From the IMG/VR virus record IMGVR_UViG_3300030104_001845, positions 18,328-54,481 of that record: DNA of 36,154 nt. One strand, written 5' to 3'. This document shows positions 10,299 to 36,154 of this stretch, in pieces. The translations under genes were made by a program, and so were the position numbers. The DNA comes from a virus. How positions within the stretch are numbered: position 1 is the stretch's first letter; every line of letters begins with the position of its first letter. The notes beneath the pieces are model-generated. The model was not told the origin of the DNA. It did no database searches and saw only the letters and a list, made by a program, of their open reading frames with translations.

Positions 10299-10305
10299 TA
10301 TTTAT
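10299..10305 (-). promoter_or_regulatory. T4-type late promoter motif (ATAAATA) for gp15-gp16
   Basis: The minus strand reads ATAAATATAGG; the TAA inside the motif (10304-10302) is the gp14 stop codon. The element ends 19 bases before the gp15 ATG. Confidence 0.65.
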
Positions 10306-19200: not shown

Positions 19201-20912
19201 ATGTCACCATTAAATGTTTTTGCAAAACCAACATTACCTAGATCAGGGCCACCATACACAGATTTTACATCTTGCATACCAAATGATGTTATCGCAGTGG
19301 CAACACGATTGTTTGCAATACCATTTATTTCAAATGGTTCATTAGTTATAAATTCTCCTGTTTTTTCGTAAATTTCTAAAGATGTACTATTGCTAACAGC
19401 ATTAACCAAAAATCCAGTAGCACCACTATACTTACCCTTTACTTGAGTTGGTATGGTTAGAGTAACTGGTTCATTTAAAGTTAACTTAGAAAATAGTTGT
19501 ATATCGTATAGAGATATATCCCATTCATTTACAGCTGAGTTGGATGCAGTGTAAGATCCTGATTCTAGTGCGAAATCATAACATCTAGCAACACCAATCT
19601 CACCACCAGCAGCACTTTGTTGACTTGATCCCTGCCTTTGATCTCTTAAACTAACAATATAAGTATTTCCTATTCCAATATTAGGTGCACCAGATACGTT
19701 ATTAAGTCTTAATGCATTTCCTGTTTTATATGCAATACCTTGATTTTCTAATGTTTTTGATGTTCTTGGTTTAGGACAATCTATGTAAGTAGAACTAATA
19801 GTTTCAACCTCATATCCCTTAACAAATGCTTTACCTGGTGAAACCTGATAAACTGCAAGATCGTCACTTGCAAGTGTTCCACCTTGTGTGAACTGACCCT
19901 CTTGATATATACCACCGTTTTTCACACCATCATCTAAAGAATTTTTCAATCCAATATTAAAACTTCTAGTTACATAATCTCCAGATTCAGCAAATGTTCT
20001 ACGAGCTAATTCATCTCTAATAAAACTATAATCTGTATTTTTTTTCTGAGATCTTAAAATACCATTTTCAATAACTGCTAGTTCAATAAAATTAGAATCA
20101 TTCAAATCATCTAATGGTTTAGCAAACAAACTACAAGATATTTTTAAACGATCTGCACCTGGTGCAGCATAGTTATTAAATCCTTTTGAGTTATCCGCTA
20201 AAGTTTCATCTTCATCAGCGTTAATTATATCCTCATCGATTCTTAAACCGATTCTCGCACTAGGATTATTTGTATATTGAGATAATATGATTGTTTCATC
20301 TTGAATTTGAACAAAATTACCTCTTATAAAATAAACACCATTTGATATAGAGAAGGATGCAGCAGTTGAAGTAGCATTATTTGCAATACATGATGCAAAT
20401 GTTTCACCTGAAGGTATGAAAGCATTATTATCTGGCCCTGAAGTTATATCACTATCTGCTATTAATAATTCTCCATCTGCAAATACTTTAATTGTGCTAT
20501 CTTCAACTCCAGAAGACATATATGAGATATAAAGCGTTAAATTACCATTCTCACTATTCTCAGATCTGAGAACCTGTTTAATTATCGCTGTTACTCCTGT
20601 TGATGCTCCAATTATTTTTCTATCAATTAACTGATCAATATAAAATTCTACAGGAATTCCTAAATGACTATTATTTAATTCTACAGCAAAATATTCAGTA
20701 GAATACGCAGTGTTACCTGGTATTACCTTTGCACCCTCTTTGAAAAAATGTTGACCAAATTTTTCAATTTGATTTTGTAATATAGACTGAAGACCTGATA
20801 ATTCCCTTGCTTGAACAGGGAAGCCAGGTTTGAAAAGAACCTTATGATAATTATCATTCGGATCGAAATCATCAAAATATGGTGAAACGTTAAGGTTGGT
20901 TTGCTGAGCCAT
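13206..20912 (-). CDS. Giant DUF4815-type baseplate-associated structural protein (2568 aa)
   Basis: A 2568-residue protein with the N-terminal signature LNVSPYFDDFDPNDNYHKVL, FKPGFPVQARELSGLQSILQ and HFFKEGAKVIPG, which I recognise as DUF4815-type proteins of T4-like marine phages. A central conserved block (about 1075-1240) includes YRMQDIKDLEDRIKNLEYYT, SLSMLETETSNLF and LRPQHYCTSIDLMPGP. Around 1717-1775 is YDPLAQSFQV with VYFQTKDDMDIPMTFQIRTM. The rest is beta-rich with modules shared with the gp7-like giant: SGA motifs (ASTGVTAII, GENSGAVALV, GASSGATAVV), GxGF repeats (NAGLGF, SSGSGF), an HRNHGMHHEQNRVTISGV unit, and GLLQIGDEVLRYTG. It starts 6 bases after gp8 and occupies the position of T4 gp9-gp12, so a gp10-like fibre connector or outer baseplate component is likely but unproven. 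I see no frameshift. Confidence 0.9.
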   Translation of the reverse strand: MAQQTNLNVSPYFDDFDPNDNYHKVLFKPGFPVQARELSGLQSILQNQIEKFGQHFFKEGAKVIPGNTAYSTEYFAVELNNSHLGIPVEFYIDQLIDRKIIGASTGVTAIIKQVLRSENSENGNLTLYISYMSSGVEDSTIKVFADGELLIADSDITSGPDNNAFIPSGETFASCIANNATSTAASFSISNGVYFIRGNFVQIQDETIILSQYTNNPSARIGLRIDEDIINADEDETLADNSKGFNNYAAPGADRLKISCSLFAKPLDDLNDSNFIELAVIENGILRSQKKNTDYSFIRDELARRTFAESGDYVTRSFNIGLKNSLDDGVKNGGIYQEGQFTQGGTLASDDLAVYQVSPGKAFVKGYEVETISSTYIDCPKPRTSKTLENQGIAYKTGNALRLNNVSGAPNIGIGNTYIVSLRDQRQGSSQQSAAGGEIGVARCYDFALESGSYTASNSAVNEWDISLYDIQLFSKLTLNEPVTLTIPTQVKGKYSGATGFLVNAVSNSTSLEIYEKTGEFITNEPFEINGIANNRVATAITSFGMQDVKSVYGGPDLGNVGFAKTFNGDIIQKPIINFEGAKFTAKDNATGICTVTSENSLFPSAIKVGNILSFGGLGNNIPSFARVTEVNTSDVKVTGVTTVTGVSSGVIPTSDTVVSSLKLISSPLERSTENRLYALMPKAFVSDVDLTSSTLTIRKIFDVDVVQNGNTGLGQLSSAITAGVNETFLPFDEERYVFMRSDGSTVSLTDDMFNFSTGNTVLQLEDLGVATTGCTLIATLAKSKPTAKIKRLNRVNATVVNYSKDSASGIGATTLNDGLTSGNFPIGTRVQDEKISLNEADVIRILGVFESNNTSEASAPKMTLTSLNGPAGKTTDLVVGEQFVGENSGAVALVAESITDAQITYISQNETAFEEGEVVTFKESNIQGLITTLDNPSKNISANYTFTTGQKSTFYDYGFITRRSNAKAPKKQLKIYFQNGFYESTDDGDITVKNSYDSFNYSKDIPMINGEYVTDTLDIRPKVSSYTVLESVRSPFEFFGRTFTAAGSSAKNILASDESINLTFSHFVGRVDRIFLDKTGKFQVQYGDPSERRERPTGVDDAIELASVLLPPFLFSPKQASIDFLKYKRYRMQDIKDLEDRIKNLEYYTSLSMLETETSNLFIPDADGLNKFKSGFFVDNFTSLKTQETNGFKVKCSLDPAFNELRPQHYCTSIDLMPGPVEDVPAGTDRAFLEAEGTNIKKGDDVVTLDYIETEWLSQQFATRTESVTPFLVSFWQATVKLNPSTDTWTDTARLDAKIIQQEGNFAGIMAQAMQEFGVDPQTGMAPIQWNAWETTWSGEEFSDRTRRRQESSSATHEEIIKAGWINGGSGVNHSQDVTVTSTTTLEDTIRDTIRVDDQTRTGTRKIVTEQFDKESLGDRVVSRDVIMTMRSRNIEFRVTKCKPLTQLYPFFDGITVNKYCTPKLLEITMQSGTFQVGETIIGKLPGSGIPAEGTDIPAIRFRVAQANHRSGPYNAPTAVFAKNPYISQVGATGLETFLGTPGLVQLPSASGGSTNMPATYSSTSTILNVDTKSLADQPQGDFFGYAATGMELRGASSGATAVVSNKRLISDLGANLIGSFYIPNPNSGNHPRFETGTKTFTVIDNTTNDQENTDTFGEDNYTAAGTLETVQENIISTRNAIVQTLPTADARTTRTLTGSTVMKTEAISTQQRETGRRDRWYDPLAQSFQVTETGGIFITSCDVYFQTKDDMDIPMTFQIRTMEGGVPTQKILPFSEIIKAPDEIQVSANGTVPTKFTFEAPVYLAGDNTEYAICLASWSTKYKVFISRIGESDLLTDEFISQQPYLGSLFKSQNASTWDASQWEDLKFVINKAVFEESGTMEIYNPILSEGNNQVARLQPNSININSKRVRLGIGTPLTDTVLTLGNTINQLAVNDGGTSFSAASNAFGDFVDSAGIGTGSMGIVNAGLGFTPASGSALFVGVALTNITAGGDFMTADVVVTDGGISSARIISSGSGFKQGDLLGIGTIGNNAVGRNARMSIVSIGRTDELILDNVQGDFALNGLLTYTHPITGITTSLNTVKTGSAASCRVEKITTVSDGLHFTVDHRNHGMHHEQNRVTISGVESDVVPTKLSLPYGSSSTSTISVESTDNFTTYENVAVGATNPGLLQIGDEVLRYTGASGGSITGITRGNNAKGYIKGTAVRKYELGGVSLGRINRTHIMSEVTDKDPSPITFDSYTLRLDVSAMTAAQTGLPFTLPNRQSSGSAASNPLLFFNDTKSTGGFDAHATQNIPFQIISPNIANVTVPGTTISATMKTISAASLGNGLGQGTDVPFLDKGSESVTLNKSNYLNSTRMVASRVNETNNIVTQNNSGDRSLNMTLTLETSNTDLSPLVDLQRMSAVLVSNRVDAPITNYLEDPRVNTLFDDPTACQYVSRENSLANSASSIKIILEGHINEFSDIRAYYAISPTPNFEPIFEPFPGFANLDNNGQIISAEKNDGRPDRFIPKADVGGFKSNEVTFREYEFNMENLPPFKFYRVKFVLTGTNQTYVPRVSNLRVITLA

Positions 20913-20918
20913 AGTTAA

Positions 20919-22475
20919 TTAGAACTGTAATATTATTTTGATGTCTTCTTTTTGGTTGGAAGATCTTGTAATTGATGGTCTGTGATCAACATAAATCATA
21001 TTTCCAGAGTATTTGTCAATTTCTGGATTAGAAACACCCTTGGTAAATGTTTGACCAAGATAATAGGTTCTATTATTTATTGAGGTTGAGAGACCTGAGA
21101 ATGATGTACTGATTGATAAATTAGAACTACCACCAACAATTGTTACATTACCGCCAGCACTTGGGTCTGCAGTAAATCTTGTTGTGTTGTAACCATAGAT
21201 CGCTGCAGTAGCTGTTTGTGCAGTTCCAACAGTGTTAAAACCAGCAATCGTTCTATCTTGCCAGTATTTTAAAACACCAGTTACTTGGTCGTAACTAATG
21301 ACTTTTCCAAACGCAGTTACACCAGTTCCAACAGTTTGTTGTATTAAGCTATCTGCAGTGAATGTCACAGAACTATATCCAGTTCCAGATAATCTTAATC
21401 CAAAAGAAGCACTTGCTTTATCTAATGTAAGTAATTGATCAGATCCAAATGCTTTAGGATTTTCTAAAACACCTATTCTGGCAATTTGGTTTCCCGTGAT
21501 AAAATCGGGGTTTTCTGGATCATTTTCAATTCTTGCATATAATAAAGCGTTTGTTGCACCCAATTCTCTATAGATATCAGCACCGTGTCCACCAGGCGGT
21601 GGGATAATAACGTCAAGTTGTGGTGGAGATGTAGGAGTTGGAACTGATCCAGCAGTTAAATCAACGTTACCATATGTGTATCCAAATCCTTCGTTAGATA
21701 CTGTGACACTTTCTATTTGAGCATCATTATTTACAACAACAGTGCATTCTGCATTAAATCCATCACCTTTAATAGGAACTCTAGTATATGTTTGGTTAGC
21801 AGTTCCTATACCTGTTCCTCTATTCTTAACAACTACAATTTTAATTCCACCATCGGTGGCATTGTTTTTAATAGAAGCATCTGCAGCATTATCACCCCAA
21901 TTTAAAGGAACTGGCATAAAATCAGTAGAATCAAATTTAATTAAATCTGCTGGTTTGATGCTATATAAGTATTTCCAAATATATCCGTCACCAGATGTAC
22001 CAGCACTTCTTGGTTCTAAATCCGTAAATGTTGGTTCGTCTAGAGATGGTTTTCCATCAGGTGTTTCTGGTGTTGTTCCATTCTGTAAGCATATATAAAC
22101 TCTAAAATCACTATTAACAACAAAGAAGTTTGCAGTATATAGTGATGTTCCTCCAGAGTTTGGTGGTGCATTAGATATACTGTAGTCATGTCTATAGAAA
22201 TCATAAGTGGTTCCAGAACTCCAGTTTTGTTTAGGAACTATTTGTTTTACGTCAGCTGAGGTTATTCTTTTAACAGCAATCATACTATCATAGTAATCAT
22301 TCATGTTATTGAAACTGTCAACTGGTGCAGGAGGATTTGAATCCCAATCAGATTGAATACTGGTGGGATTTGGTAAACCTACAAATGCATAATAAGAATT
22401 AGACGAAGTGGATACACCAGCAACGAAGTTTTTTGCATTTAATATTCTTATTTGATCCGTTATGATTGCCGACAT
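20919..22475 (-). CDS. gp8: Baseplate wedge protein gp8 with two insertions
   Basis: This 518-residue protein (T4 gp8 is 334) is a wedge subunit that in T4 binds gp6, gp7 and gp10. The core matches T4 in three pieces. Residues 1-190 include IAVKRITSADVKQIVPKQNW and the diagnostic GDGYIWKYLYSI (T4 GDGYVWEYLFEI). Residues 303-342 include ALLYARIEN and QIARIGVLENP (T4 RFKAYLDS, RQISIITNP). The end, 486-518, has YSGNMIYVDHRPSITRSSNQ and KEDIKIILQF (T4 HSGEMIYMENRPP, EEINILFTF). About residues 205-298 and 343-485 are insertions. The first carries IESVTVSNEGFGYTYGNVDL, a GxGY repeat as in gp14; the second carries GVTAFGKVISYDQVTGVL. A CTAAATAAATA promoter overlaps the previous gene's stop. No Shine-Dalgarno is evident. 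Confidence 0.95.
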   Translation of the reverse strand: MSAIITDQIRILNAKNFVAGVSTSSNSYYAFVGLPNPTSIQSDWDSNPPAPVDSFNNMNDYYDSMIAVKRITSADVKQIVPKQNWSSGTTYDFYRHDYSISNAPPNSGGTSLYTANFFVVNSDFRVYICLQNGTTPETPDGKPSLDEPTFTDLEPRSAGTSGDGYIWKYLYSIKPADLIKFDSTDFMPVPLNWGDNAADASIKNNATDGGIKIVVVKNRGTGIGTANQTYTRVPIKGDGFNAECTVVVNNDAQIESVTVSNEGFGYTYGNVDLTAGSVPTPTSPPQLDVIIPPPGGHGADIYRELGATNALLYARIENDPENPDFITGNQIARIGVLENPKAFGSDQLLTLDKASASFGLRLSGTGYSSVTFTADSLIQQTVGTGVTAFGKVISYDQVTGVLKYWQDRTIAGFNTVGTAQTATAAIYGYNTTRFTADPSAGGNVTIVGGSSNLSISTSFSGLSTSINNRTYYLGQTFTKGVSNPEIDKYSGNMIYVDHRPSITRSSNQKEDIKIILQF

Positions 22476-22497: not shown

Positions 22498-22508
22498 TAT
22501 TTATTTAG
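22498..22508 (-). promoter_or_regulatory. T4-type late promoter (CTAAATAAATA) for gp8 and downstream genes
   Basis: The minus strand reads CTAAATAAATA, giving two overlapping late elements (CTAAATA and ATAAATA), then an A tract. The TAA in the first is the stop codon of the gp7-like giant. It lies about 22 bases before the gp8 ATG and is the only late-type motif I see for the gp8, DUF4815, 75-aa and 130-aa genes. Confidence 0.7.
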
Positions 22509-25500
22509 ACAGTGAAGTTTTCAGCTTTAAGAGCAATCTTCCTCTTAATCTGCGGCCCTGTCTTTATACCAACCACACCATTGCTAGTGTTAATGGTATA
22601 TGCCTGTGATATTTGTCTATCTGTTAGTTGTAATCGACCCCAACTAAACTCACCAACAAATGATGTGGTCAAACCTTGATTCAAGGTAGAATATCCAACT
22701 GTGTTCTGTAAACCATTCCAATCTAAGATTCTACTGAACACTCTCACTGCACCCTCTGCTTGATCAGATCCGAATCCAACAGTCGTAATTCCAACATAAT
22801 GAGATACTTCATAGATGTTATCCAATGCAGTGGTTCCTATACCAATATAAGTTCCATCTAATTCGAGAGAGGTTACACCTGATCCTACATTAGTGTTGCT
22901 AACTGTGAAGTAAAAACCTGTTTGTAAACCAGTAATTGATATTGGATCAGGGCTGAGAATATCCTCATCTCTTAATGGAGATCCTTTTGGAATATACATG
23001 TCAAACACGACTGCAGTTCCGATACCAATTGGTGTTCCATTAGCATCAGAGATGTTTGAACATATACCAACTCCAGTGACAACACCAAAGTCTCCTCCAA
23101 ATGATTCAACAGTGGTTTCTTCCCTAACATATGTAGGAGGAGCGATTAATACTTGTGGATGTGAAACCTGTGTATATCCAATACCAGGTGATGTAACTGT
23201 GATTGCCGTGACAGATCCGTTGGTGACTGTTGCAGTCGCTGTTGCTATGGTTGTGCTTCCAATACCTGCAAAAGGTGTTCCCCCAACACTTACTGGTTGT
23301 TGTATAGTAACTGTGGGAACAGAAGTATAACCATCACCACCATCAGAGATAACAATAGATGAAACTGTATTTGCGATTGAAACTGTTGCTGTTGCAGCAG
23401 CACCAGCGAGAAATTCCAATTCATGACTGGCATTTACTATTTGAAGTTCTTTCTGGAAACTTCTGTCAATTGGGTTTTCATTCTCTGGATTGAAGAATGG
23501 TCTACAATTATCAAGCCAGAACACTGTATCAGCGACACCCACAGGTTGTATTAGATATGCAGTTGGGAATAGATTGGGTTCATATAGAGGTCTATCCTTA
23601 CGAACTATTCTACCATCAATAAACTTATCTTCAATTTGCCTATACCATTTTACGGGTCTAGTTTCAGTAGCATCATTACCTATACCAACACCAAAGTATT
23701 GATTACTAACAACCGTGTCTGATGATTTAATCTCACCAACTGTTCTTGGGAACTCTACGAATGTTTCTGTATTATATGCAGGATCAAATCCAATTTGCAA
23801 ATCATCACCAACTTTAACAGTTTCTACGATATCTCTATCTTTTACGTCTTCACCACCAGTTCCTCTGTAGAAGAATAATCTCATCACATCACCTTCATTT
23901 GGTGCTTCAGTCATTGTTATTGTTCCACCACCATTGAATTCATAACCTTCACCAGGCACTTGTAGAACATCATTTATAGTAAGAATAATAGTATTTTGTA
24001 CAACGATATTTGATCCAGTTCTTCCCTGTATAGCAAATGCCTCACCACCAACAGTTAATGGGAATGATTTTCTAGTGCCATCAAATAGACTTGAGAAATC
24101 ATCAAGTGCTTGAAGTTCACCCATTGTCCACATATTAAACTCATCATGATGAACTTTCTCTAATGTTAACTTGAATGGTTTAAATAGATGTGCATCTATA
24201 GGAATAGCATATGATTCACCAGGTGCGGTTGCAAATGTGGGAACTGTTAATACTTGAGAGTTACCATATCCAAAACCTGTATTAGTAATTTCAAAATCAA
24301 TTACACGACCACCTGTGGTTGCAACGCCAACTGTGATGTTTGCTCTTGCTTGAGTTCCACCAACACCTGGTGTAGATGCATGATCATAGTGGAGAGGAAT
24401 GTCTTGATAAGGTAAAGGTGCGTCAATAATCGCCTCAAATGTAGATGAACCTACGCCAGTAAAGCCAGGAACAGGATCGGTCTGTGTAATGGCAATACTT
24501 ACAACACGACCATTTGTGACTGCTGCAGTTCCAATAAACTCTATGACAGGTGTTCCTGTGGAGGTTGTAAAGGCAACACCAACTTTAACTTCAGTTGCTA
24601 TACCGACACCGCTAATTGAACTTGTCGTTGCTCCCATGGCAGGGCCAGGATTCACTCTATAACCAGATCCACTATTACCAATACTAACTGCAGTAACGAT
24701 ACCAGAGGAAGCAAAACGAATTGTAGCACCAGCAGAAACTAATGGTTGATATCCAAATCCCTCACTAGATGCAACAGAAACTATAATACCACCAACAGGT
24801 ATGGATGCACTTTGAACATCATTTGCTATTGAAGATGCTGTTCCTGTAAAGGAAATTGATGAAATACCAGATACCTCTGTCATCTCATAATCATTTGTTT
24901 CACCTGCACCTTGTAGTATTCCATTAACTAAAACAATACCAAGGTTAGTTGCAATACCAGTTACATTTGCATTATCGCTTGTCAGTGTGAATACTTTCTT
25001 TTGACCATTGAACTCTTGAGCAATATCATCAATAGCATAGTTTCTACCATAAGCATCAAAGTTACCACCCTTAATACCAGATCTATTGAATATTCTACCA
25101 CTGAAACTTGATGTGGTTGTAATACCAACGAAGTCTCTTTCGTTAGGTGGTGAGGTTGCAACACCAACTTGTGGTCTATTTCCAATCGGTGCTGCAGCAA
25201 AGTTAAGTGTACTGTCAACAATATTATAATTACCAACCATCTTAGTGACAACATCATGATTGGAATGATCTAAAAGATCAGTTCCCACCCAATTTCTATG
25301 AACTCTAATTGCACTACTAATACCAGCATTATTAGTTGCGATTATCTTCATCATTTCATTACCAACTTTTACAATATCACCACTAAAGAATGATGTAATA
25401 CCAGAGGTAAACATTATAGTTTCACCTCTCTTAAAGTCTACACCAAGAGATGTGGTAACTGCAGTTCCCACGATTGGGCTTTGAATAACATTATCAATTG

Positions 25501-28500
25501 TTATTAATGCTCTTGTATTTTGGTTTTTGCTTATTAGACTATGCGATGTTCCGACACCAACCGCACTTATATCTAAAGGAACATTGACTGATTTTAAAGC
25601 ATTCTCTGCTGATGCTGCAAGTTTAACTACACTATCACTAACTTTGATAATAAAGACAGATGATGGAATATGAGTAAGTGTTGCTCCAATACCAGATAAT
25701 CCTTGGCCAGGGAAATGTGTAGCAGCAATTCCTATTGCATCACCAGTGCTTCCAATACCTGTTGTTGTGCACCCAACTATTGGTTGTGCCACACTATATT
25801 CAACTTCTTCACCAGTTACAAAGAAATGGTTAGGAATTGTAATTGTATTATTTGTAACATCTACGATACTTGAACTTGATCCATCAAAGTTTTGTTTAAA
25901 TATCTCATTACCTTCATTCTTTACAGCAAAACCAGTTCTAGCACCAAAGAATGTTCCCTCGTAAATATCAAACTTACTTTGAATAGATGCAGAATTAAGT
26001 TCAATTTTTGCAGTACTACTATCTTCTACAACTTTAAGTGCATGCATGAATGTCTTAACTTCAACTGGTATATTTGCATTTGGAACATATTTTAATTCAG
26101 TGAAACAATCTGTTGAATCTCTTGCTCCTTCTATAGTTCCTATACCAGATGTTGCTCCTGCTCCAGTTATAATATTTCCATACTCTGTTAAGAATACACG
26201 ATCATCATCGTCAATCATCATAACTTCAGCAAATTCATATGTATCATTCAAAGTATCTTTAATTTGAACTATTGCATATGCTGCGTCAAACTCTTCACCA
26301 TAGCTACCAATTCCCACAGAAACAGGTGCAGATCTTGCTGGTATGGTTGTTGACTTAGCAATTAATGATGCATTCTTTAATGATACTGTTCCTAAACCTG
26401 TATATGTTTCAGATGATAATCCTATGGTAACAGAGTTAATATATGCAGTTACAATACCAGCGTTTGGTGTAAATCCAATTTGAATTTGAGCAGTGGTTCC
26501 AAGACCTACAATATGCGGTCTAAATGTTCCTAATGGTTCTGAAGCAAGATTATCTCTCCTATTGTGAATAGTTAATTGACCATATTGCTCAAATGCTACA
26601 GTAGATCCTAGACCTACAGCACTTTGATTCATGACCATGCTTAACTCATTATATTCAACAGTTCCTTCACTTGTTGCTATAGAAACTATGACTTTAGCAG
26701 ATCTAGCATTATGTAATTCTTCTGCATTACCTGTTGCTAATCCTGTTGTGGATGCAGTTCCTACGGTAGCCACAATGACTTCACCGCCACCTTGAGACGA
26801 TCCACCTAATGTTGTAGCAGCACCGATATGAACAAGTGCTGATGCTGGACTTGATGCTGCTCCTATGGCAGTTGTTGTTCCTACAATTGTTGTTGTTCCA
26901 CTTCCAATAAGTTCATTAAGATTATATGAAAGTGTTACAACATTATAATTATTAAATTCACTCTTATTTGGGAAGAATTTAAGAACAGCCTCTGTTCCGT
27001 CAACGTCAGTATCCATGGAACCAAGATCTCTAACAGTATCTACTTGACCATACTGGTTAATCATTGATTGACCACTAATAGGATCGAATAAAGCATTAAC
27101 CATCATCAATTGTCTTTCACCTGTGAATAATCTATCCTTCACATATACCATGAATCTATTTTCTTTATTCCCAGTAATACTAAATCTACCTACCTCAGAG
27201 AATGCAGTGCTTCTTGGTTGATCTTGGAAATCATCACTAATATTATCAATTGTAAGAACTCTATTTCCTACAGACTCAGCATAGTCGATTAATATTCTGT
27301 TTTGGAAAGTAATTTCATCAGAGAGATTACCAGCAGCAGGAGATCTTGATTTTAAATTCTCAGTAACTAAATCAAAGTTATCAACTTCATGTAAACTCTC
27401 AAATCCTTGTAAATCAATAATACCAGTAACTGTTCCAGCAAGTCCGACTACCAGTGATGCTTTTTGAGCAACTGGTAAATTAGATTCTACTTGGAGATTA
27501 CTATATTTTCTAAATCCAGAGGTATGTGTAAGAGTATTGACCATATCTTTCCACTTCTCTTCAAACACTCTAGATTTTATCGCATATGAAAATCTTTGAT
27601 AATATTCATTTTCATGTGTAACTTGAAGAATATCATTTAATTTACCAGTATCATACTCCCATCCATTATTCACCAGTGAAAAATAGTTAACTAAGAAGTT
27701 GGTGTCAAACGTAAGAACTATTTCAGATACAGTTCCTTTTGCACCTGTTTCTGATGATTCAATTAATCTACCAACTTCAAAATCACTAGATGCTTCTACG
27801 GTCAACCACTGACTTTCTTCATCATATTCAAAAGCAAGACCAGATACAGGGCCAACACTAGTTTCTGATGTTAATGTTTCATTTGCATTGAATGTGTTAG
27901 GTTGCAATACAGGAGAGAACTGTGGGAAATCTCTTTCTCTTACTAATATTGCTGATGATAGTGTTGTATTAAAATTACCAGGTATTTCACCACTAGGAAC
28001 ATTGCCATTCATGCTATAAGTTACAACACCAACGTTACCTAAGTTTTCATGGACTTGTGTTACTTCAAATGTACGATATTGATATGCATCAGAATTATAT
28101 CCCTTTCCTGTTGATCCTACACCCACACTAGCATTTTCCACAAATACTCTATCACCAATTTCTATTGGGAAGTTTTGCGTTAAACTGTAAGCAACTTTTA
28201 ATGTCGCAGCAACTGTATCTGTAGATGCATCATAAACAAGATTTGTGACTCTAATTCCGTTTGGATTATTAACAGGAACAATAATTGGAGTTACATTAGA
28301 TAAACCAAAAGTATTTTCAATAATATCAACATAGCCAGATCTATCAGGAGTCTCCAAATTATATGCCAAATCAACATCTTCATCTTTAACTCTTGTAACA
28401 CCATCAAGAACAACTAATGTTGGTGGTTGATTATAACCTCTACCATAAGATGTAATTCCAACTTCTCTAAGACCAGATAGTGCCTCAATTTTAATAATTT

Positions 28501-31500
28501 GAGGTAATTTTGATTGTGGTCTTAACGTAAAGTCTGATGGATAATCAAAACCAATACTTTCTAATTTTGTAGTTTTAGGAGCACCAATTGAAGTGCTTGA
28601 TGCCTCTAGAATAGCACCTGTTCCTGTATCAGATGTGACAGTTGAGACACCAGGTAATCTGGTATAACCTTTTCCTTTTTCTGATAAAGAAATTGCTGCT
28701 ATAGGGCCATATGCACTCTTAGATGTAGTATCATATATTATTTCAGTTGTTGATGAATTAGTATAAGATGATTCCTCTGGGAATCTATCTAAATCATATG
28801 TAAAAGTATTATCAGAATTTGCTAGAATATTGAATTGACCAGCATAGAGACTATCTCTAAATGTTATTGAGTTATTACCAATAATTTCTTTGTCTAATAC
28901 TAATTCATTATTTACATCTGGATTATCTGAATCAGTGTTTGCAACTAAGTTGTAATAAAGTATTTTTGGAGTATTTTGATTATATGTAAGAATCAATTTA
29001 CCATCAACACCAACAGTTCCTGTTCTACTTACATTAAATGTTGTTGACTTTTCATTTGAAGTGTATTCATGTATAAAATTATAATCTGTATAAAGTTCTA
29101 AATCAAATGCTGGCAAAGTATCTGCAACTTTAGTAAATGCTAAAGAAGAGTCTGATAAATCAAATGTTATAGTTCCGTTTTTATAAAATTCAAGTGGTGG
29201 ATTAACAAGATTTAAAACTCCATTGTTTCCAGTATTAGAAGTGAGAATACCAACAAATTTTGGTCTTCTTTGTCTTGTTTGGAATCGACTTCCGCATAAC
29301 TTAATCTTATCTTTGTTAATTACATATACGAAATATTCTTCATCGTTAACCAAACCACCCATGGGGCTGGATGATGTGTGAATAACTCTTTGACCAGTCA
29401 CCATTTCATGATTTACGATTTCAATCGCATCGGGTATTCCAGTTCTTGATGTTGATGTAGTGATACCAGAAGCTGTGAAGTCTAATGTTCTAGCAATAAG
29501 TTTTCTATTTGCTTTATTATATTTGATTGGAACTGTTGTAGTAATTCCAGCATTTACAGTTAAGAATATTCTATCATTATTAGTTAATCCATGAGTGCTC
29601 GCAGTTGAAACAGTGACTTTATTTTTTTCAGCAGAACCTGTAACAGTTTTATCATAACTTACTTTTAAACTATGATATGTTCCAGTTCCAATGCCTATGA
29701 AATATACAAGACCTTGTTTTTTAGTTGTTGCTGCAGCACCTACAAATACATCTTCAGGATCAACACCATCACCTGGTGTTCCTAAACCTATTCTAACTGT
29801 AGATAAACCAATTAAATCATCGTTTAATTTTGCTACAAATAAATCAACTCCTTCTGGAAGATTTGCAGATGCACCGAATAAATTAGCGTTAGCACGATTT
29901 GTAGATATACCTATCGAGTCACCAGTATTTCGATTATATCTTACTTTATCTCCAGTTTTAAATTTATGATTTGGTAAACGTATAGATCTAGATGGAATGA
30001 ATATTTGAGATAAACTACCACCAGGATTTGAAATGGTTACTGTTGTTCCTATTCCAGGCCCAGCAGTTGTTCCAACACCAACTGATTCGACTGGGTTGAA
30101 ATAATATTCAGTATTAACTTGATTATCAAATTCAGTTGTAAATCCAACATCTATTTTAAATTTTCTAGGATCTTCTTCTATTGATGTTCTAATAGTGTGA
30201 GTTGCTCCTACCACACCATCTTCTAAACTATTTTGATTTCTTAAAACTCTTATCCTAGAGTTTGCAGCATCAACATTTAATATTTTTACTTGTTCTTGTC
30301 TTGTTCCAATACCCACTTTTAATACATCATTCTCTCTTAAATTGAGACTGTTGAGATTATCATTAGGTGATGGTAGTTTACCTTGAACATTAAAAAATGT
30401 TACTAATCCAGTAGCAGCTACTGATCCTATTCCTTGAGAAACTACTAATTGTGCAGATGAAATACCAATATTATAAGTTTTTCCTCCAAGATCAGAACTG
30501 GTGGTTGACATTCCTGAGACAAAAATCTTATCTAAATTTTGTATTTGTATTGGAGTAGTATGAACGCCAATAAATCTACCTTTTTCTTGTGCTGGATAAA
30601 ATTCAATATTTTCTAATTTAGTATTAGTAACAGCGATAGTACCAATTCCAGGCCCTCTAACCTTGGAAACTTTTGCCACAGTTTCAAAATTATCAGCAAC
30701 TGCCTCTTCAAAAACAACTTTATCACCAACTTGGTATAAAGTTCCACCAGTGACTATTCCGACTTTTTCTACAGCACCCTCTGATGCATAAACTATAGAT
30801 CCCTCTTGTGTTACAAACTTATATGATTGACTCACATAATCATAAGCACTATCATCTTGAAGCAATTCATAAGGTTCTGTATTTCTTACCCAAGCAGTTT
30901 CATTTAAATCTATTTCGTCTTGATTACTCTTAGATAAGAAATTAAATTCATTTGGTTGTGCTCCAAAGTTTTCACCTAGTAAATATGGAAATTTTGGTTT
31001 TTTAAAGTTATCGAATGGATCACTAGAATCGTCAGTTAAAGTGGATTCAAGAGTTGAAAAGTATGCATACACTCCATTTGGATATTCTGGAGTTACACCA
31101 TATCTTCCGTTATTTTCATCAAGGAAACTTTCATCAGTGCTACTATTCCAAGTGAAATCTTCAATGAAAAATTCTTGAGGGAAGATACTAGTTGGAGGTC
31201 TATTTGTTTTTAAATCTATCGAATATCCAGATTTAAGTTGAGTTACAGATCCACCAGTACTATTTTCATATCCATAAGGGCCATATATTGGAAGACCATC
31301 ATACGCCCAACCAATAATTGGTGAGTGTTGTGTTTTATTTTCCTCTGTGTCACCATTTAATAATGTTAAATCTCTACTTCCAAATAATGGATCACCATCA
31401 GCATTATTTTGATATACGATCTTTCTTAGACCTCTTGGTGCGTATGCATGTGAAACTTGCAATTCACGACTAATTTGTGTTGGTTTTTCTATGAAAGTAT

Positions 31501-34500
31501 CAGAAGAGTCTATATTGGTAAAATTCTTTCTAACTTCGTTAACTTGCCATGTTTTAAGATTTGATTGGAATATGGCAAATTCACCAGCAGATTCTACATT
31601 AAGAGATGTTGTAGATGCACCATATCCAATACCACCTTTTATTATTTTAACTGATCTGATTTGACCACCAATTATTTCTGGAACTAACTCCGCACCAGTT
31701 CCGATACCTGTAACTGAAATGCTAGGAGGAGTATTGTATGATTGTCCTCTATTGTTTATTGCAACGTCAATAATTTGACCATTAGCAACAACAGGTAATA
31801 ATTCTCCACTTACACCAGTATAGAGGTCAATACCTGGCTGCCTATTAAAATTAAGTATCTCTGAAGCACCATAACCAACACCACCATTTGTTAGATGCAC
31901 TGATGTTACCTCTCCTCTAAAGAGTGGCTGAGGCACACATTGGAAATTCTTTCCTTCAATTGAACTTATGCCAACAATACCCTCTACTTTTACAACAATC
32001 GGATCATAGTTGAAACTATGAGTTGCAACTCCAATAGATCTTAAATTTTCATATTGTTTAGTTCTAAAATAAAAGTCTTTTGCAGTTGTTCCAACCCCAA
32101 CTGTTGATAATTTAAATGTATTTTCATCTATAACAAAAACATAATATTTCTTATCACTTGCAAGACCCTCTACAGCAGTTCCGTCTGAATCAGCACTATA
32201 AGTTACAATCTCACCTGTCTTATAATCATGATTATTAATTGTAATTCTATCGAGTGCAGTATTAATGCCAGTTGGTTCACATGTTTTAAGTTTATTTTCG
32301 TATCCCTCACCTGGTTCCAATACATTTATAGTACCGACTTGCGACTTTCCGTTTAATGATCTAAATTGATGGTTTCCCTCTCCAAATGCAGTGAATGCTA
32401 TGGTATTAACACCAGCAACCGCTTCATCTAGGTTTCTATGAAGCCTAATCGTTTTCTCTGGGAACCAAGTTGTTCCATCATATCCTACAAAACTTGATAT
32501 TGTCGTTATACCAGTTGGAGTATCTGTATTAACATAATATATTGCACCTGTGCTTAATCCTGCTAATGCTTTTTCTCCAAAAGTATCATATACAATTCTT
32601 TCATGATTTCTAAATTTATGATATGTTAAAAACCCTACGTTGTAATCATTATGAGTGGTAATTGCAACTGTTTGAGATCCTGCACCAGAATTAAATATTA
32701 CTTGATGAGGAACAGTAACCATTTTACATTCTGCTACAGCACCAGTTCCATTCCCTCCACTTATTGATACTTTAGGAACATCCACATAATCAAAGCCTGG
32801 ATCTAAAACTCTAATTTCTTGCAAATTACCTCTAGTTGCTACAAAACCAGTAGCACCAACACCAGTGGCATCATTGATTGCTAATAATGGTGGATTTATG
32901 ACATCGTAGTTTCTTCCACCACCAGCAACATCAACAGATTTAATATCACCATAGTAACAGAGATCTTGAGACTTATAACTTAGTACCTCAACACCATTAA
33001 TTAAAATCCCATTATATCCAATTCTAGTTGGATATTTTTTGCCATCATAAACAGGCATATCAATTTCTCTAAACAGTTTTTGTGGTAAAATCTGTTTTTT
33101 ATGAAATTCATATTTTTCAAAAGTATTATTTGTAATTGTAGTGGTAACAGTTGATTCTGATACTTTTTGATAATTACCATCATATAAATTTGATCTAGAT
33201 TTTGCTAATTTTATATCATTTAAATTTACTCTTTCTACAAAGTATAATCCCTCACCAAACAGAAAACTTGATACAGTTCCATTGGCAGCCTTTTGTGGAG
33301 TATAGTAAATTGCATCACCACTAAAGAAGTTATGATCATTAGCACCAGTTGTTATTCCAATAATGGTTTGACCACCAAGGAAAGTTCCAGATAATTGAAT
33401 TTTTTGAGTGCTTGGATTTAATTTATGATCAGATCCATATGTTGGTATTGAGTTAGAGGCAACTAGATTTTTAAGTTTAGAAAGAGTATGAGCATATCCA
33501 ACTTCCTCCATATAAATGTTTTGAACATTTGCAGTATAGTCATTTAAATGTTGTTGATTATTATCAACACTACTGCCATCCGAATTTGGTTTTGAAAGAG
33601 TTTTTGTTATTGCAACTACTGCAGAAAGGCTGCTTATCGCAGCACCTCTAATTCTAACTTTTGTGGCACTTAAAACATCAGTAACAGCATAACCACCATC
33701 TAAAGTTGCATTGTTTGTTTGAACTGTTACAGTGTCATTTAACCTTATTCTATGAAAATCTTTTGTTGTAACTTCGTATGTATTATTAGAGGCATCCTGT
33801 AAAGTTATGCTATCAATATTATACTTTGGTTGAACATTAAATACCCAGTTATTTGATTTAAAATCAGTTACTTTAGCGATCTTACCTAGAGATTTTAATT
33901 TTATCTTTGCACCCTTTCTTTGATAGAAAGTATTAGGTAATTCAATACCACTTAATACACCTGTTATACGACACCGTATGCCGTCTGTAGTGACCCCTGC
34001 GGTGCGGTCTGCTTGTCCTAGGGCATATACATAGGTATTTTGTTTAATAGGTGTAGCATCCTTAATAGTGGTCGTTATGCCAGTTGTGCTTATACCTAAA
34101 AACTGTGTTACATTAGTGCTTGAATATGTGCAAACTCCAGTTGTTCCATTTTGATATTTGAATGTTAATGACCCTTTATCAGGAAATCCTATCGTAGAAT
34201 CAACATCTATAAACGTTTGTGCAGCACCAACAGATCCTACGTTTCTTGAGTTAGCATGAATACCAAATTCACCATATAATAATTCATCAGAACTACCTGT
34301 TCCAAAAGAGGCATCAATACTAACTTTATAGTATGTGTCTGTTAATAGTCCAACTCTAACCCTCTCAACCATTGATACAGGGCCGTACGCTCTAGATAAG
34401 TTTTCAAAGGGATCTTGGAAAAGAGTTTTATTCTCAAGATCCATTGGATCACCTTGTATTGCTTCAACTATAATGTCACGAGTCTTTCTGTAGTTTGCAT

Positions 34501-35200
34501 CTGATGGTGCAATGACATAATCAGCAGGTCTTACAATATCTACTTCTTCATTAAATAATGATTTGAATAGTATTTTAAACGATTCATCAGTTCCTCTTGA
34601 ATTGTAAAAATCTTTTGAGTGACGAATAAACTGTGGTTGATTTAACCCAGTGTTTAAATCCTTTTGAAAACCAGGTAAAAATTGTTTCTTTGATTTCTTT
34701 AAAAATTCCTCTAAGAATAAAACACTTAAATTATTGACTTGACCACCACTTGTTCCAACACCAACAGCATGACTAGATGCATTAGATGATGAAAAAACAA
34801 ACTCTTCTGGTTCATCAGGATTACTAAAAGACGTAATACCACTAAAACCACGAATACATCCAGTAAATGAATTAGTTGTTAATCCAGTATATGAAATTAT
34901 CTCATTATCTATTTTTAATAAACCATAACTGTCTGGGAATCCAGTTGTATCCTTTACAGATATGGTTTCATCGAATTGACCAACAGCACTTGAAAGAGTT
35001 GTAAACCCAACTAAAGTTCCAGATTTGTTTAATTGTACATAAGAATCTAAATTGCTGATTATATCAATTGGGCCACCTTGATATTCTTGACCTTGATAGT
35101 AAGCACTTAAAAATTCACCCACTAAAGGACTATCATCCTTCACATAACTGGGAAGTTGTTCTTTTACAACCTTATTAATTTGAACTCTTTTTTCTGTCAT
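22505..35200 (-). CDS. gp7: Giant gp7-related baseplate wedge protein (4231 aa)
   Basis: A single open frame of 4231 codons; T4 gp7 has 1032. T4 gp7 motifs appear in order: EQLPSYVKDDSPLVGEFLSA (14-33), FYNSRGTDESFKILFKSLFN with EEVDIV (198-223; T4 FYSTKGIEASYKFLFKVLYN), then, about 2,330 residues later, YYQRFSYAIKSRVFEEKW (2533-2550; T4 YYVMKIKSNLPSSRW). Gp7 is the wedge initiator that binds gp10 and gp8. The intervening and following sequence is a mosaic of beta modules: about a dozen GxGY repeats, at least eight H-x-x-x-x-G-(D/E) units, three (L/I)xNxxLQ-type units and a YHYH-like domain (GWAYDGLPIYGPYGY at 1297-1311). The gp6 stop lies 4 bases upstream and no promoter intervenes, so gp6 and this gene are co-transcribed. 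Its position between gp6 and gp8 is that of T4 gene 7. There is no internal stop or frameshift. Confidence 0.88.
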   Translation of the reverse strand: MTEKRVQINKVVKEQLPSYVKDDSPLVGEFLSAYYQGQEYQGGPIDIISNLDSYVQLNKSGTLVGFTTLSSAVGQFDETISVKDTTGFPDSYGLLKIDNEIISYTGLTTNSFTGCIRGFSGITSFSNPDEPEEFVFSSSNASSHAVGVGTSGGQVNNLSVLFLEEFLKKSKKQFLPGFQKDLNTGLNQPQFIRHSKDFYNSRGTDESFKILFKSLFNEEVDIVRPADYVIAPSDANYRKTRDIIVEAIQGDPMDLENKTLFQDPFENLSRAYGPVSMVERVRVGLLTDTYYKVSIDASFGTGSSDELLYGEFGIHANSRNVGSVGAAQTFIDVDSTIGFPDKGSLTFKYQNGTTGVCTYSSTNVTQFLGISTTGITTTIKDATPIKQNTYVYALGQADRTAGVTTDGIRCRITGVLSGIELPNTFYQRKGAKIKLKSLGKIAKVTDFKSNNWVFNVQPKYNIDSITLQDASNNTYEVTTKDFHRIRLNDTVTVQTNNATLDGGYAVTDVLSATKVRIRGAAISSLSAVVAITKTLSKPNSDGSSVDNNQQHLNDYTANVQNIYMEEVGYAHTLSKLKNLVASNSIPTYGSDHKLNPSTQKIQLSGTFLGGQTIIGITTGANDHNFFSGDAIYYTPQKAANGTVSSFLFGEGLYFVERVNLNDIKLAKSRSNLYDGNYQKVSESTVTTTITNNTFEKYEFHKKQILPQKLFREIDMPVYDGKKYPTRIGYNGILINGVEVLSYKSQDLCYYGDIKSVDVAGGGRNYDVINPPLLAINDATGVGATGFVATRGNLQEIRVLDPGFDYVDVPKVSISGGNGTGAVAECKMVTVPHQVIFNSGAGSQTVAITTHNDYNVGFLTYHKFRNHERIVYDTFGEKALAGLSTGAIYYVNTDTPTGITTISSFVGYDGTTWFPEKTIRLHRNLDEAVAGVNTIAFTAFGEGNHQFRSLNGKSQVGTINVLEPGEGYENKLKTCEPTGINTALDRITINNHDYKTGEIVTYSADSDGTAVEGLASDKKYYVFVIDENTFKLSTVGVGTTAKDFYFRTKQYENLRSIGVATHSFNYDPIVVKVEGIVGISSIEGKNFQCVPQPLFRGEVTSVHLTNGGVGYGASEILNFNRQPGIDLYTGVSGELLPVVANGQIIDVAINNRGQSYNTPPSISVTGIGTGAELVPEIIGGQIRSVKIIKGGIGYGASTTSLNVESAGEFAIFQSNLKTWQVNEVRKNFTNIDSSDTFIEKPTQISRELQVSHAYAPRGLRKIVYQNNADGDPLFGSRDLTLLNGDTEENKTQHSPIIGWAYDGLPIYGPYGYENSTGGSVTQLKSGYSIDLKTNRPPTSIFPQEFFIEDFTWNSSTDESFLDENNGRYGVTPEYPNGVYAYFSTLESTLTDDSSDPFDNFKKPKFPYLLGENFGAQPNEFNFLSKSNQDEIDLNETAWVRNTEPYELLQDDSAYDYVSQSYKFVTQEGSIVYASEGAVEKVGIVTGGTLYQVGDKVVFEEAVADNFETVAKVSKVRGPGIGTIAVTNTKLENIEFYPAQEKGRFIGVHTTPIQIQNLDKIFVSGMSTTSSDLGGKTYNIGISSAQLVVSQGIGSVAATGLVTFFNVQGKLPSPNDNLNSLNLRENDVLKVGIGTRQEQVKILNVDAANSRIRVLRNQNSLEDGVVGATHTIRTSIEEDPRKFKIDVGFTTEFDNQVNTEYYFNPVESVGVGTTAGPGIGTTVTISNPGGSLSQIFIPSRSIRLPNHKFKTGDKVRYNRNTGDSIGISTNRANANLFGASANLPEGVDLFVAKLNDDLIGLSTVRIGLGTPGDGVDPEDVFVGAAATTKKQGLVYFIGIGTGTYHSLKVSYDKTVTGSAEKNKVTVSTASTHGLTNNDRIFLTVNAGITTTVPIKYNKANRKLIARTLDFTASGITTSTSRTGIPDAIEIVNHEMVTGQRVIHTSSSPMGGLVNDEEYFVYVINKDKIKLCGSRFQTRQRRPKFVGILTSNTGNNGVLNLVNPPLEFYKNGTITFDLSDSSLAFTKVADTLPAFDLELYTDYNFIHEYTSNEKSTTFNVSRTGTVGVDGKLILTYNQNTPKILYYNLVANTDSDNPDVNNELVLDKEIIGNNSITFRDSLYAGQFNILANSDNTFTYDLDRFPEESSYTNSSTTEIIYDTTSKSAYGPIAAISLSEKGKGYTRLPGVSTVTSDTGTGAILEASSTSIGAPKTTKLESIGFDYPSDFTLRPQSKLPQIIKIEALSGLREVGITSYGRGYNQPPTLVVLDGVTRVKDEDVDLAYNLETPDRSGYVDIIENTFGLSNVTPIIVPVNNPNGIRVTNLVYDASTDTVAATLKVAYSLTQNFPIEIGDRVFVENASVGVGSTGKGYNSDAYQYRTFEVTQVHENLGNVGVVTYSMNGNVPSGEIPGNFNTTLSSAILVRERDFPQFSPVLQPNTFNANETLTSETSVGPVSGLAFEYDEESQWLTVEASSDFEVGRLIESSETGAKGTVSEIVLTFDTNFLVNYFSLVNNGWEYDTGKLNDILQVTHENEYYQRFSYAIKSRVFEEKWKDMVNTLTHTSGFRKYSNLQVESNLPVAQKASLVVGLAGTVTGIIDLQGFESLHEVDNFDLVTENLKSRSPAAGNLSDEITFQNRILIDYAESVGNRVLTIDNISDDFQDQPRSTAFSEVGRFSITGNKENRFMVYVKDRLFTGERQLMMVNALFDPISGQSMINQYGQVDTVRDLGSMDTDVDGTEAVLKFFPNKSEFNNYNVVTLSYNLNELIGSGTTTIVGTTTAIGAASSPASALVHIGAATTLGGSSQGGGEVIVATVGTASTTGLATGNAEELHNARSAKVIVSIATSEGTVEYNELSMVMNQSAVGLGSTVAFEQYGQLTIHNRRDNLASEPLGTFRPHIVGLGTTAQIQIGFTPNAGIVTAYINSVTIGLSSETYTGLGTVSLKNASLIAKSTTIPARSAPVSVGIGSYGEEFDAAYAIVQIKDTLNDTYEFAEVMMIDDDDRVFLTEYGNIITGAGATSGIGTIEGARDSTDCFTELKYVPNANIPVEVKTFMHALKVVEDSSTAKIELNSASIQSKFDIYEGTFFGARTGFAVKNEGNEIFKQNFDGSSSSIVDVTNNTITIPNHFFVTGEEVEYSVAQPIVGCTTTGIGSTGDAIGIAATHFPGQGLSGIGATLTHIPSSVFIIKVSDSVVKLAASAENALKSVNVPLDISAVGVGTSHSLISKNQNTRALITIDNVIQSPIVGTAVTTSLGVDFKRGETIMFTSGITSFFSGDIVKVGNEMMKIIATNNAGISSAIRVHRNWVGTDLLDHSNHDVVTKMVGNYNIVDSTLNFAAAPIGNRPQVGVATSPPNERDFVGITTTSSFSGRIFNRSGIKGGNFDAYGRNYAIDDIAQEFNGQKKVFTLTSDNANVTGIATNLGIVLVNGILQGAGETNDYEMTEVSGISSISFTGTASSIANDVQSASIPVGGIIVSVASSEGFGYQPLVSAGATIRFASSGIVTAVSIGNSGSGYRVNPGPAMGATTSSISGVGIATEVKVGVAFTTSTGTPVIEFIGTAAVTNGRVVSIAITQTDPVPGFTGVGSSTFEAIIDAPLPYQDIPLHYDHASTPGVGGTQARANITVGVATTGGRVIDFEITNTGFGYGNSQVLTVPTFATAPGESYAIPIDAHLFKPFKLTLEKVHHDEFNMWTMGELQALDDFSSLFDGTRKSFPLTVGGEAFAIQGRTGSNIVVQNTIILTINDVLQVPGEGYEFNGGGTITMTEAPNEGDVMRLFFYRGTGGEDVKDRDIVETVKVGDDLQIGFDPAYNTETFVEFPRTVGEIKSSDTVVSNQYFGVGIGNDATETRPVKWYRQIEDKFIDGRIVRKDRPLYEPNLFPTAYLIQPVGVADTVFWLDNCRPFFNPENENPIDRSFQKELQIVNASHELEFLAGAAATATVSIANTVSSIVISDGGDGYTSVPTVTIQQPVSVGGTPFAGIGSTTIATATATVTNGSVTAITVTSPGIGYTQVSHPQVLIAPPTYVREETTVESFGGDFGVVTGVGICSNISDANGTPIGIGTAVVFDMYIPKGSPLRDEDILSPDPISITGLQTGFYFTVSNTNVGSGVTSLELDGTYIGIGTTALDNIYEVSHYVGITTVGFGSDQAEGAVRVFSRILDWNGLQNTVGYSTLNQGLTTSFVGEFSWGRLQLTDRQISQAYTINTSNGVVGIKTGPQIKRKIALKAENFTV
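23140..23360 (-). repeat. Two GxGY-type repeats near the C-terminus of the gp7-related giant
   Basis: Two units read VSSIVISDGGDGYTSVPTVT and VTAITVTSPGIGYTQVSHPQ, separated by a Gly/Ala/Thr-rich linker (about residues 3947-4020). They are closest in style to the gp14 insert, with the threonine-x-proline step conserved in the first. Confidence 0.8.
31059..31312 (-). other. YHYH-like domain in the gp7-related giant
   Basis: Residues about 1297-1381 carry GWAYDGLPIYGPYGY, then a variable part, then NNGRYGVTPEYPNGVYAYF. This follows the layout of YHYH-family domains (G-Y-A-Y-D-G-x-P-I-Y-G, then C/N-N-G, TPEYP-G-x-Y-H-Y-H), but the family-defining YHYH reads YAYF at 1378-1381, so both histidines are gone. 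Confidence 0.75.
31600..31915 (-). repeat. Three GxGY-type repeats in the gp7-related giant
   Basis: Three adjacent units read VTSVHLTNGGVGYGASEILN, IIDVAINNRGQSYNTPPSIS and IRSVKIIKGGIGYGASTTSL, at residues about 1095-1200 with a spacing of about 40. Each repeats the strand, G-x-G/S-Y turn and strand pattern found in gp14. Confidence 0.8.
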
Positions 35201-35204
35201 GTGG

Positions 35205-36154
35205 TTATCTTACAAGCTTCTTTTCTTTATAACTTGGAGTAACAGTGTATGTTGAACCAGATGGATCTGCACCTGAAGCAATTTCATCAATAATCATCTC
35301 TACGTTACTAGTATCTAGTTGCAAATACAGATCCTGTAATCCAATTACATCATTTGAAAATGGACAAGTAGAAATTTCTAAGATTTGTTGAGCATCTTTT
35401 GTCTTCCCTGATGTTATATTAATAGGATTAAGTGTAATTCTACCAGTTTCATAGTTTACAGTGCCCACATTTTGTCTCTCAATCAATGGTGTAGTCGATC
35501 CTGGTGCGTCTAAGGAGAATAAACCGAGTGTTCCTGTAGATGCACCAGCGTTTGGTAGGTCATATAAGTAGACCTCATTGCTAATATCTAATACTCTAAA
35601 GGCAGATGAACGAATATTAAACCCATCCATGTATCTAACATCAAATCTGTTGCCAAAATCAATAGCATATTCAGCAAATTGATTGGTTGCTAGTCGTAAA
35701 TCTCTTCTCATTTCCACAGTTGTGATGTTAGAAGTGACAGATTCATGACTTTGATCAATAACTTTTAAGAATTTACTGTATTTGAATCTCGCACCATACT
35801 TATTTAGCTCTGCAGATGCAGCTAGTTTATTAATGTTATTCAAAATTTGCGAAGAAACTGTCAAAGCATTAGGTGCAAGACTCGTATTATAGTAAACTTT
35901 ACTCTCAGTCTCAATAAAGAGATACTTGAGATCGAGAATTTCGGGCACAATTCCTGCTACAGAGTATTTTCGGAGGTCTCTTTTGATATTTTCCTTGATT
36001 GCATTTGGAACAAAGTCTCCAGTTCGTGGTTTTATGCTAATAAACACCTTTCCATACTGTGGAGGAACCAATTCTTCGCCTCCATAGACTGAAATTGACT
36101 CAGTTTCTGGGTAAATTTTGTTAGGAATTAGGATTTCGTAGTCATTTGAGGTCA
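35205..36154 (-). CDS. gp6: Baseplate wedge protein gp6, C-terminal part (runs off right edge)
   Basis: The frame is open to the right edge of the window; 316 codons including the stop are visible, against 660 residues in T4. The ATG at 36071 is internal: in-frame codons upstream read YPETESISVYGGEELVPPQY, continuous with GKVFISIKPRTGDF, a gp6 signature. In T4, gp6 forms the inner ring of the baseplate wedge with gp7 and gp53. Other visible segments are SVAGIVPEILDLKYLFIETE (a strand-rich block typical of gp6), MRRDLRLATNQFAEYAIDFG, and a C-terminal domain with NYETGRITLNPINI and LEISTCPFSNDVIGLQDLYL. The stop is 4 bases before the giant gene's ATG. The assignment is good; the N-terminal half is outside the window. 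Confidence 0.9.
   Translation of the reverse strand, partial: TSNDYEILIPNKIYPETESISVYGGEELVPPQYGKVFISIKPRTGDFVPNAIKENIKRDLRKYSVAGIVPEILDLKYLFIETESKVYYNTSLAPNALTVSSQILNNINKLAASAELNKYGARFKYSKFLKVIDQSHESVTSNITTVEMRRDLRLATNQFAEYAIDFGNRFDVRYMDGFNIRSSAFRVLDISNEVYLYDLPNAGASTGTLGLFSLDAPGSTTPLIERQNVGTVNYETGRITLNPINITSGKTKDAQQILEISTCPFSNDVIGLQDLYLQLDTSNVEMIIDEIASGADPSGSTYTVTPSYKEKKLVR

Follow-up and report, generated by a model that had tools for sequence, protein, structure and literature searches.

A 4231-residue cyanomyovirus baseplate protein as a probable gp7 with its conserved core in pieces

Can a baseplate wedge protein of more than four thousand residues be the counterpart of T4 gp7 and, if so, where does the rest of its mass lie? 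The question is raised by the window, a 36,154-nucleotide stretch of viral DNA (bases 18328–54481 of the 54,481-base virus record IMGVR_UViG_3300030104_001845), in which an open reading frame on the minus strand (22505..35200) starts with ATG, has no internal stops and encodes 4231 amino acids (aa). Because the terminase large subunit (3859–5514) shares 83% identity with its counterpart in Synechococcus phage S-SM2, the source is taken as a cyanomyovirus and placed, like S-SM2, in the Kyanoviridae. The reading preferred here, to which we give a probability of about 0.75, is that the giant serves as gp7 in a relative of S-SM2, with its conserved core in pieces and the added mass leaving that core as an outer arm. 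The sequence comparisons show the core itself: a piece H, a piece A with a probable equivalent of T4 domain V, and a piece B. Some 100 residues separate H from A, about 2,160 lie between the domain V equivalent and B, and about 1,650 follow B. The map is as follows (residue numbers are those of the giant unless T4 is named; HMM, hidden Markov model; E, expect value).

22505..35200, minus strand: gene 7 homologue, baseplate wedge protein of 4231 aa (phrog_2885, 3181.7 bits)
35021..35200, minus strand: core piece H, residues 1–60, predicted helix-turn-helix (T4 about 645–690; profile alignment)
34727..35020, minus strand: small module between H and A, residues 61–158 (looped out in the profile alignment)
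34481..34726, minus strand: core piece A, residues 159–240 (T4 719–759; hhalign and HMM positions)
34163..34480, minus strand: probable equivalent of T4 gp7 domain V, residues about 241–346 (small-gp7 family alignment)
27671..34162, minus strand: large insertion, residues about 347–2510, from the domain V equivalent to B (A–B gap 2271 aa)
31994..32299, minus strand: small beta module, residues 968–1069, with a second copy at 1911–1970 and weaker copies elsewhere (HMM)
31586..31918, minus strand: GGxGY beta module, residues about 1095–1205 (HMM)
31037..31339, minus strand: YHYH domain, residues 1288–1388 (PF14240, E 1.7e-21)
27467..27670, minus strand: core piece B, residues 2511–2578 (T4 865–899; HMM E 9.7e-21, the window sequence itself being among the model's rows)
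22505..27466, minus strand: C-terminal extension, residues 2579–4231 (1653 aa after B)

Evidence for the gp7 core

The match to PHROG 2885 ('baseplate wedge subunit') falls in two stretches, the best of which covers residues 1–3570. An initial annotation, made from the sequence, had noted motifs at residues 14–33, 72–150, 198–223 and 2533–2550, and all of them are present. For piece A, residues 191–222 align with T4 727–758 at 53% identity (hhalign P 5.2e-9; all hhalign P-values here are single-pair values). In the reverse direction, T4 gp7 730–758 matches PHROG 2885, the family of the window protein (E 1.3e-4), and a model of A finds 25 of 25 T4-type gp7s; as these are mutually related, they do not represent 25 independent tests. 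Plain tblastn at residues 191–222 gives weak T4-type matches (E 0.1–0.2).

Piece H is reached through a family of small gp7s (84 rows). Residues 1–400 of the giant (84 rows), which include H and the small module, match this family at hhalign P 3.2e-29 in a colinear alignment that spans residues 1–346 with 61–160 looped out, and the family in turn matches T4 645–842 at P 9.8e-14. Since the small family bridges the two, piece H of the T4 gp7 core is present in the window. Residues 241–346 also align, with gaps, with the small-gp7 family, and the same region of the family aligns with T4 up to 842; through this link the region after A, to about residue 346, is probably the equivalent of domain V. 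An insertion that replaces T4 domain V was considered and dropped, because the small-gp7 family alignments keep the domain V equivalent before the insertion.

For piece B, the window family's own profile is weak when used alone (hhalign P 0.0057). A profile of 93 segments, from which T4-types were excluded, finds all 25 T4-type gp7s at 853–951 in their own numbering (T4 at 865–899), with domain E-values of 4.8e-5 to 1.1e-3 against 2.1 for the best reversed decoy (whole-sequence E 0.29), and gives hhalign P 1.2e-6 against the T4-types. A profile of alignment A5, made from 43 of the 84 small gp7 loci, places two gp7 proteins at the top of the PDB sequences (E 3.5e-10 and 4.7e-8), with B at 866–915 in both.

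Through these shared core boundaries, small relatives that can be folded serve as proxies for the giants. We modelled one of 478 aa, L098, with AlphaFold (43 rows; mean predicted local distance difference test (pLDDT) 79.1; predicted template modelling score (pTM) 0.50). Foldseek against the PDB returned three chains at E ≤0.001, with the next match at 0.18: 5hx2_A, which is T4 gp7; 5iv5_BJ (1004 residues); and 9f4a_A0 (1031 residues), the last two from entries that include gp7 of T4 and Klebsiella phage KP1, respectively. VIA-align places model residues 58–441 on 9f4a_A0 695–897 (Z 9.0, 183 residues) and 60–440 on 5iv5_BJ 702–896 (Z 8.6, 177 residues), both with a root-mean-square deviation (rmsd) near 16 Å, which means that the domains are oriented differently or wrongly. 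A part of the model between residues 54 and 439 also matches a 179-residue baseplate chain of a Streptomyces contractile injection system (Z 5.8, rmsd 4.6, 109 aligned), a result compatible with A and B forming a single closed domain.

Several results weigh against this reading. A direct model of H finds 8 of the 25 T4-types. B taken singly falls short of significance in the profile search of the PDB (E 1.2 and 2.6), where T4 domain V has a score of −4.0 bits, and the Pfam model of that domain has no match in the window. The structural model is that of a small relative, with pLDDT blocks of 49–78 in the H region and a weak C-terminus. The superpositions on T4 and KP1 reach TM-scores (template modelling scores) of 0.14–0.21 by query at rmsd 14–25 Å, too loose a fit to show that the modelled pieces pack as in T4. 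The range of the Streptomyces match is given by its end points only, so that B's share in it is not visible, and its Z of 5.8 lies within the range of unrelated rows.

The genes on either side bear on the identity of the giant as well.

35205..36152, minus strand: gene 6, C-terminal part, cut by the record's end (phrog_219, E 1e-70)
20919..22475, minus strand: gene 8 (gp8; PF09215, E 5.8e-13)
13206..20912, minus strand: VrlC-type protein of 2568 aa, after gene 8 (phrog_358 and PF16075)

The two Pfam gp6 domains in the gene 6 part score slightly below their cut-offs, and the VrlC-type protein has the position of the 'VrlC protein' in S-SM2. VrlC (13206–20912) and gp7 (22505–35200) co-occur in one gene cluster. 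The gene order is 6-7-8-VrlC, and the giant thus lies in the place between 6 and 8 that is expected of the T4 gp7 family. With this position, three core pieces in order and membership in PHROG 2885, the proposal of the initial annotation that the frame is a true gene 7 is well borne out; it had allowed that neither segment might match a gp7 profile, and hhalign and profile searches gave such matches; on its second point, whether the two segments pack together as in T4 gp7, the L098 model is weak evidence.

A different view of the giant follows from a published statement that cyanomyophages and pelagimyophages lack T4 gp7, for which VrlC apparently substitutes (PMC7029224): the giant would be an unrelated structural protein with gp7-like motifs, with VrlC in gp7's stead. 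In agreement with this, phmmer with the whole protein against PDB sequences returned weak unrelated matches only and no significant gp7 match, and a full-length Pfam scan gave no significant gp7 match either, with Baseplate_wedge PF23786 at 185–236 below threshold (E 0.17). PF10962, taken up as a gp7 family, was a wrong pick and has no match in the 54,481-base record. The profile matches to core pieces in order, and the presence of VrlC in addition to the giant, after gp8, leave this view largely refuted and very improbable. A true gp7 is therefore present in the lineage, contrary to the published statement that VrlC has replaced it (PMC7029224).

Gap sizes and known giants

The distance between A and B separates the giants from T4. 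It is 104–107 residues in 25 of 25 T4-type gp7s, close to the value of about 100 given in the initial annotation, 2,271 in the window, 2,207–2,214 in S-SM2, SynMITS9220M01 and P-SSM2, and 2,702–2,726 in S-RIM8 and S-ShM2. The split of the core by a very large insertion, as first proposed, is confirmed; its extent has to be revised, since domain V lies between the two motifs in T4 as well, so that the extra length is ~2,160 residues, placed after the domain V equivalent (about 241–346). The proposed C-terminal addition of about 1,650 residues agrees with the map. Small gp7 loci (mostly 460–1,000 aa; the set includes near-duplicates) contain H, A and B in order in 81 of 84 cases, and in these 81 the A–B gap is 163–906 residues (median 346). 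Nitratidesulfovibrio phage SRB7757 (L011:9998-11758, unannotated) has a small gp7 in a 587 aa frame beside frames that resemble gp6 and VrlC by eye.

The layout is well conserved among closer relatives, taken as the best 80 of at least 515 found by a viral-contig scan with the N-terminal 250 residues. Piece A is found in 80 of 80, and B lies in the same frame, 2,197–2,305 residues on, in all 33 frames that are long enough, while the other 47 end before B and are uninformative on it. The B set retained 33 of 35 matches, selected by length and strand, and alignment A6 comprises 47 of 50 matches plus the window. A search of a phage collection with the N-terminal 333 residues gave 448 matching records at E 1e-5, and in 126 of these the match spans 80% of the query or more. 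The layout of the window recurs in contigs up to 98% identical and in the cultured phages S-SM2 and SynMITS9220M01. An assembly artefact or a chance fusion of separate genes might be suspected in a 54,481-base fragment; given these shared layouts and the 33 of 33 frames that hold B at near-constant distance, we regard it as excluded for practical purposes. The near-constant insertion length in close relatives, together with gaps that range from ~106 (T4) to ~2,700 residues (S-RIM8 and S-ShM2), suggests growth by module addition at a tolerated site.

Giant gp7s are already known, both as annotated public records (S-SM2 and P-SSM2) and as PHROG 2885, and the suggestion of the initial annotation that the protein is unusual in kind is not supported: the versions in the cultured phages SynMITS9220M01, S-SM2, P-SSM2, S-ShM2 and S-RIM8 have 4,067 to 6,395 aa, and that of the S-ZBM-type phage S-SZBM1 6,619 aa. 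The gp7 of S-SM2 (GU071095, 'baseplate wedge initiator', 4156 aa) and that of SynMITS9220M01 (4067 aa) resemble the giant in length class, gene order and H/A/B spacing; at 40% and 45% end-to-end identity, respectively, they differ from it, as far as compared, in sequence alone. The same core pieces in the same order are found in P-SSM2 gp7 (5195 aa), S-RIM8 gp7 (6395 aa) and an S-ShM2 virion structural protein (6198 aa), all three with 2,662–2,885 residues after B. In S-RIM8 and S-ShM2, H and A are also about 605 residues apart and A and B about 2,700, and gene 8 is not directly next. A 573 aa neighbour of the S-ShM2 protein (NC_015281, L014:18940-20661) is labelled gp7 'baseplate wedge initiator'. 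It was rejected as the real gp7, having no H, A or B and significant similarity to the giants in a YHYH stretch; the 6198 aa protein holds the core, and the label looks misplaced.

T4 gp7 (5hx2 and 5iv5) shares the order H, A, domain V and B with the giant. It differs by about 640 residues before H, by an A–B gap of 106 and by its C-terminal domain VI, which is unrecognized in the window: the Pfam model of domain VI (T4 920–1012) has no match in the giant, and for the first ~640 residues of T4 no counterpart was found there apart from one BLAST match (E 8.1) taken as chance. The small gp7s of Stenotrophomonas phage Yut3 (503 aa) and of contigs L096–L179 share H, A, the domain V equivalent, the beta modules and B with the giant and differ by a shorter A–B gap. 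A core map or a split gp7 core in cyanophages was not found in the literature by title or abstract start, in a search of mostly open-access journals. Core boundaries are now given for proteins of ~4,000–6,400 residues whose mass is mostly unassigned, and the role of the giants becomes testable as a part in the wedge versus a part reaching outwards.

Giants of this type are found in virions. S-SZBM1_208, a 'baseplate wedge initiator' of 6619 aa, was detected with 71 peptides at 13.5% coverage in phage particles for which long tail fibres are reported absent, and a second 'baseplate wedge initiator' of 615 aa is listed (PMC9146016). The S-CREM2 wedge protein encoded at 77594–83407 gave 91 unique peptides (PMC10665884) and is likely gp7 by position. 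The coverage of just 13.5% (PMC9146016) would suit a chain that is made whole and then cut, with A and B on separate fragments and no continuous arm. This is unlikely, as A and B share an open frame in all 33 relatives whose frame is long enough, and the model gives a weak indication that they may be halves of one domain.

Modules of the insertion and a plausible outer arm

BLAST self-comparison of the giant gave no internal repeats at E 0.01, and sensitive piecewise searches alone found repeats. The recurring module types in the insertion are small beta modules, one of them related to the T4 tail sheath protein gp18, plus a YHYH domain. Further copies of the GGxGY module lie near 750–818, 1466–1519 and 3949–4011 (HMM). 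At domain E <0.001 it occurs at four places in the giant and three in gp14 (best reversed decoy 0.088), and also in gp8 and T4 gp18 (E 5.8e-9); beside these, the profile matches a tailspike depolymerase (E 3.1e-4). The copy in the L098 model fits T4 gp18 99–188 with Z 9.5, rmsd 2.5 and 26% identity. One beta module is thus common to the neck protein gp14 (10302–11720), gp8 (20919–22475), gp7 (22505–35200) and T4 gp18 99–188. The small module at 61–158 has weak similarity to residues 323–408 (independent E (iE) 0.006).

The module at 968–1069 reaches pLDDT blocks of 72–92 in an AlphaFold model of residues 960–1560. In structure it is similar to domains of ubiquitin E1 (Z up to 8.3) and of phage endosialidases (Z 6.0–7.0; Foldseek probability up to 0.98, though at E 0.07); the endosialidase domain is carbohydrate-binding. 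For the 960–1560 model as a whole Foldseek gave no match at E 0.001, and a profile of this region has no solved relatives with E under 0.6.

The YHYH domain at 1288–1388 is certain (PF14240, 77.5 bits against a cut-off of 25). Its name motif, which we take to contain histidines, would presumably lie where YAYF or YAYY stands in 54 aligned rows. YHYH domains have been predicted as metal-dependent hydrolases (PMC7824862), an activity that the YAYF/YAYY residues argue against here.

A possible arrangement of the added mass is indicated by Vibrio phage XM1. Its gp17 (242 aa) is a described T4 gp7 homologue with the first domain split by residues 80–106; this loop of 27 residues and the C-terminus (201–242) hold two sets of tail spikes, which are separate and attached (PMC10457771). 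By this description, the spike sites appear to correspond to the A–B gap and the C-terminus of the giant, as judged from order. In Anabaena phage A-1(L), the C-terminal loop of the wedge protein gp32 contacts the long tail fibre (PMC10966104). In the preferred reading, H may join two gp6 chains in the core bundle and A and B may close into one domain beneath it, while the material between and after A and B would leave the core at two places matching the XM1 spike sites. Built of small beta modules, with a single chain for each wedge, this material might make up a jointed outer arm; the arm would bear receptor-contacting parts, or share in bearing them, and relay the contact to the wedge. A peripheral or outer arm is plausible, because the XM1 gp7 homologue holds tail spikes at apparently the same two places. 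More tentatively, the gp7 core could be a general mounting frame, with the domain V–B gap and the C-terminus as growth points where T4-like phages of marine bacteria have made receptor-contacting arms a direct part of the wedge scaffold; if this is true, six single chains would do the job of T4's separate baseplate fibres and pass contact straight to the wedge.

Some results count against such an arm. The correspondence with XM1 gp17 is one of piece order, and the AlphaFold model of residues 960–1560 is poor (pLDDT 50.8) apart from two modules. Separate fibre-like genes are encoded as well. The view of the initial annotation that the giant could replace separate fibres is not supported, given the 627 aa protein with tail-fibre PHROG matches at 6956–8839, which lies together with small genes in the interval from terminase gene 16 to terminase gene 17.

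It is a real possibility, somewhat short of even odds, that the extra residues have a structural role, such as that of an outer ring or cushion of the baseplate without receptor contact, and that separate fibres provide that contact. The tail-fibre-like gene and the large VrlC protein of the window are in line with this, as is the GGxGY module in gp14, gp8 and gp18, none of which is known as a receptor-binding protein. S-SZBM1 virions hold a separate YadA-domain protein (PMC9146016), and a two-layered baseplate has been predicted for such phages (PMC7029224). The tail spikes of XM1 at apparently matching places and the resemblance of module 968–1069 to an endosialidase domain speak instead for the receptor-contacting arm.

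The tail sheath protein of the window (1553–3802) has 749 aa versus 659 aa for the gp18 chain listed for T4.

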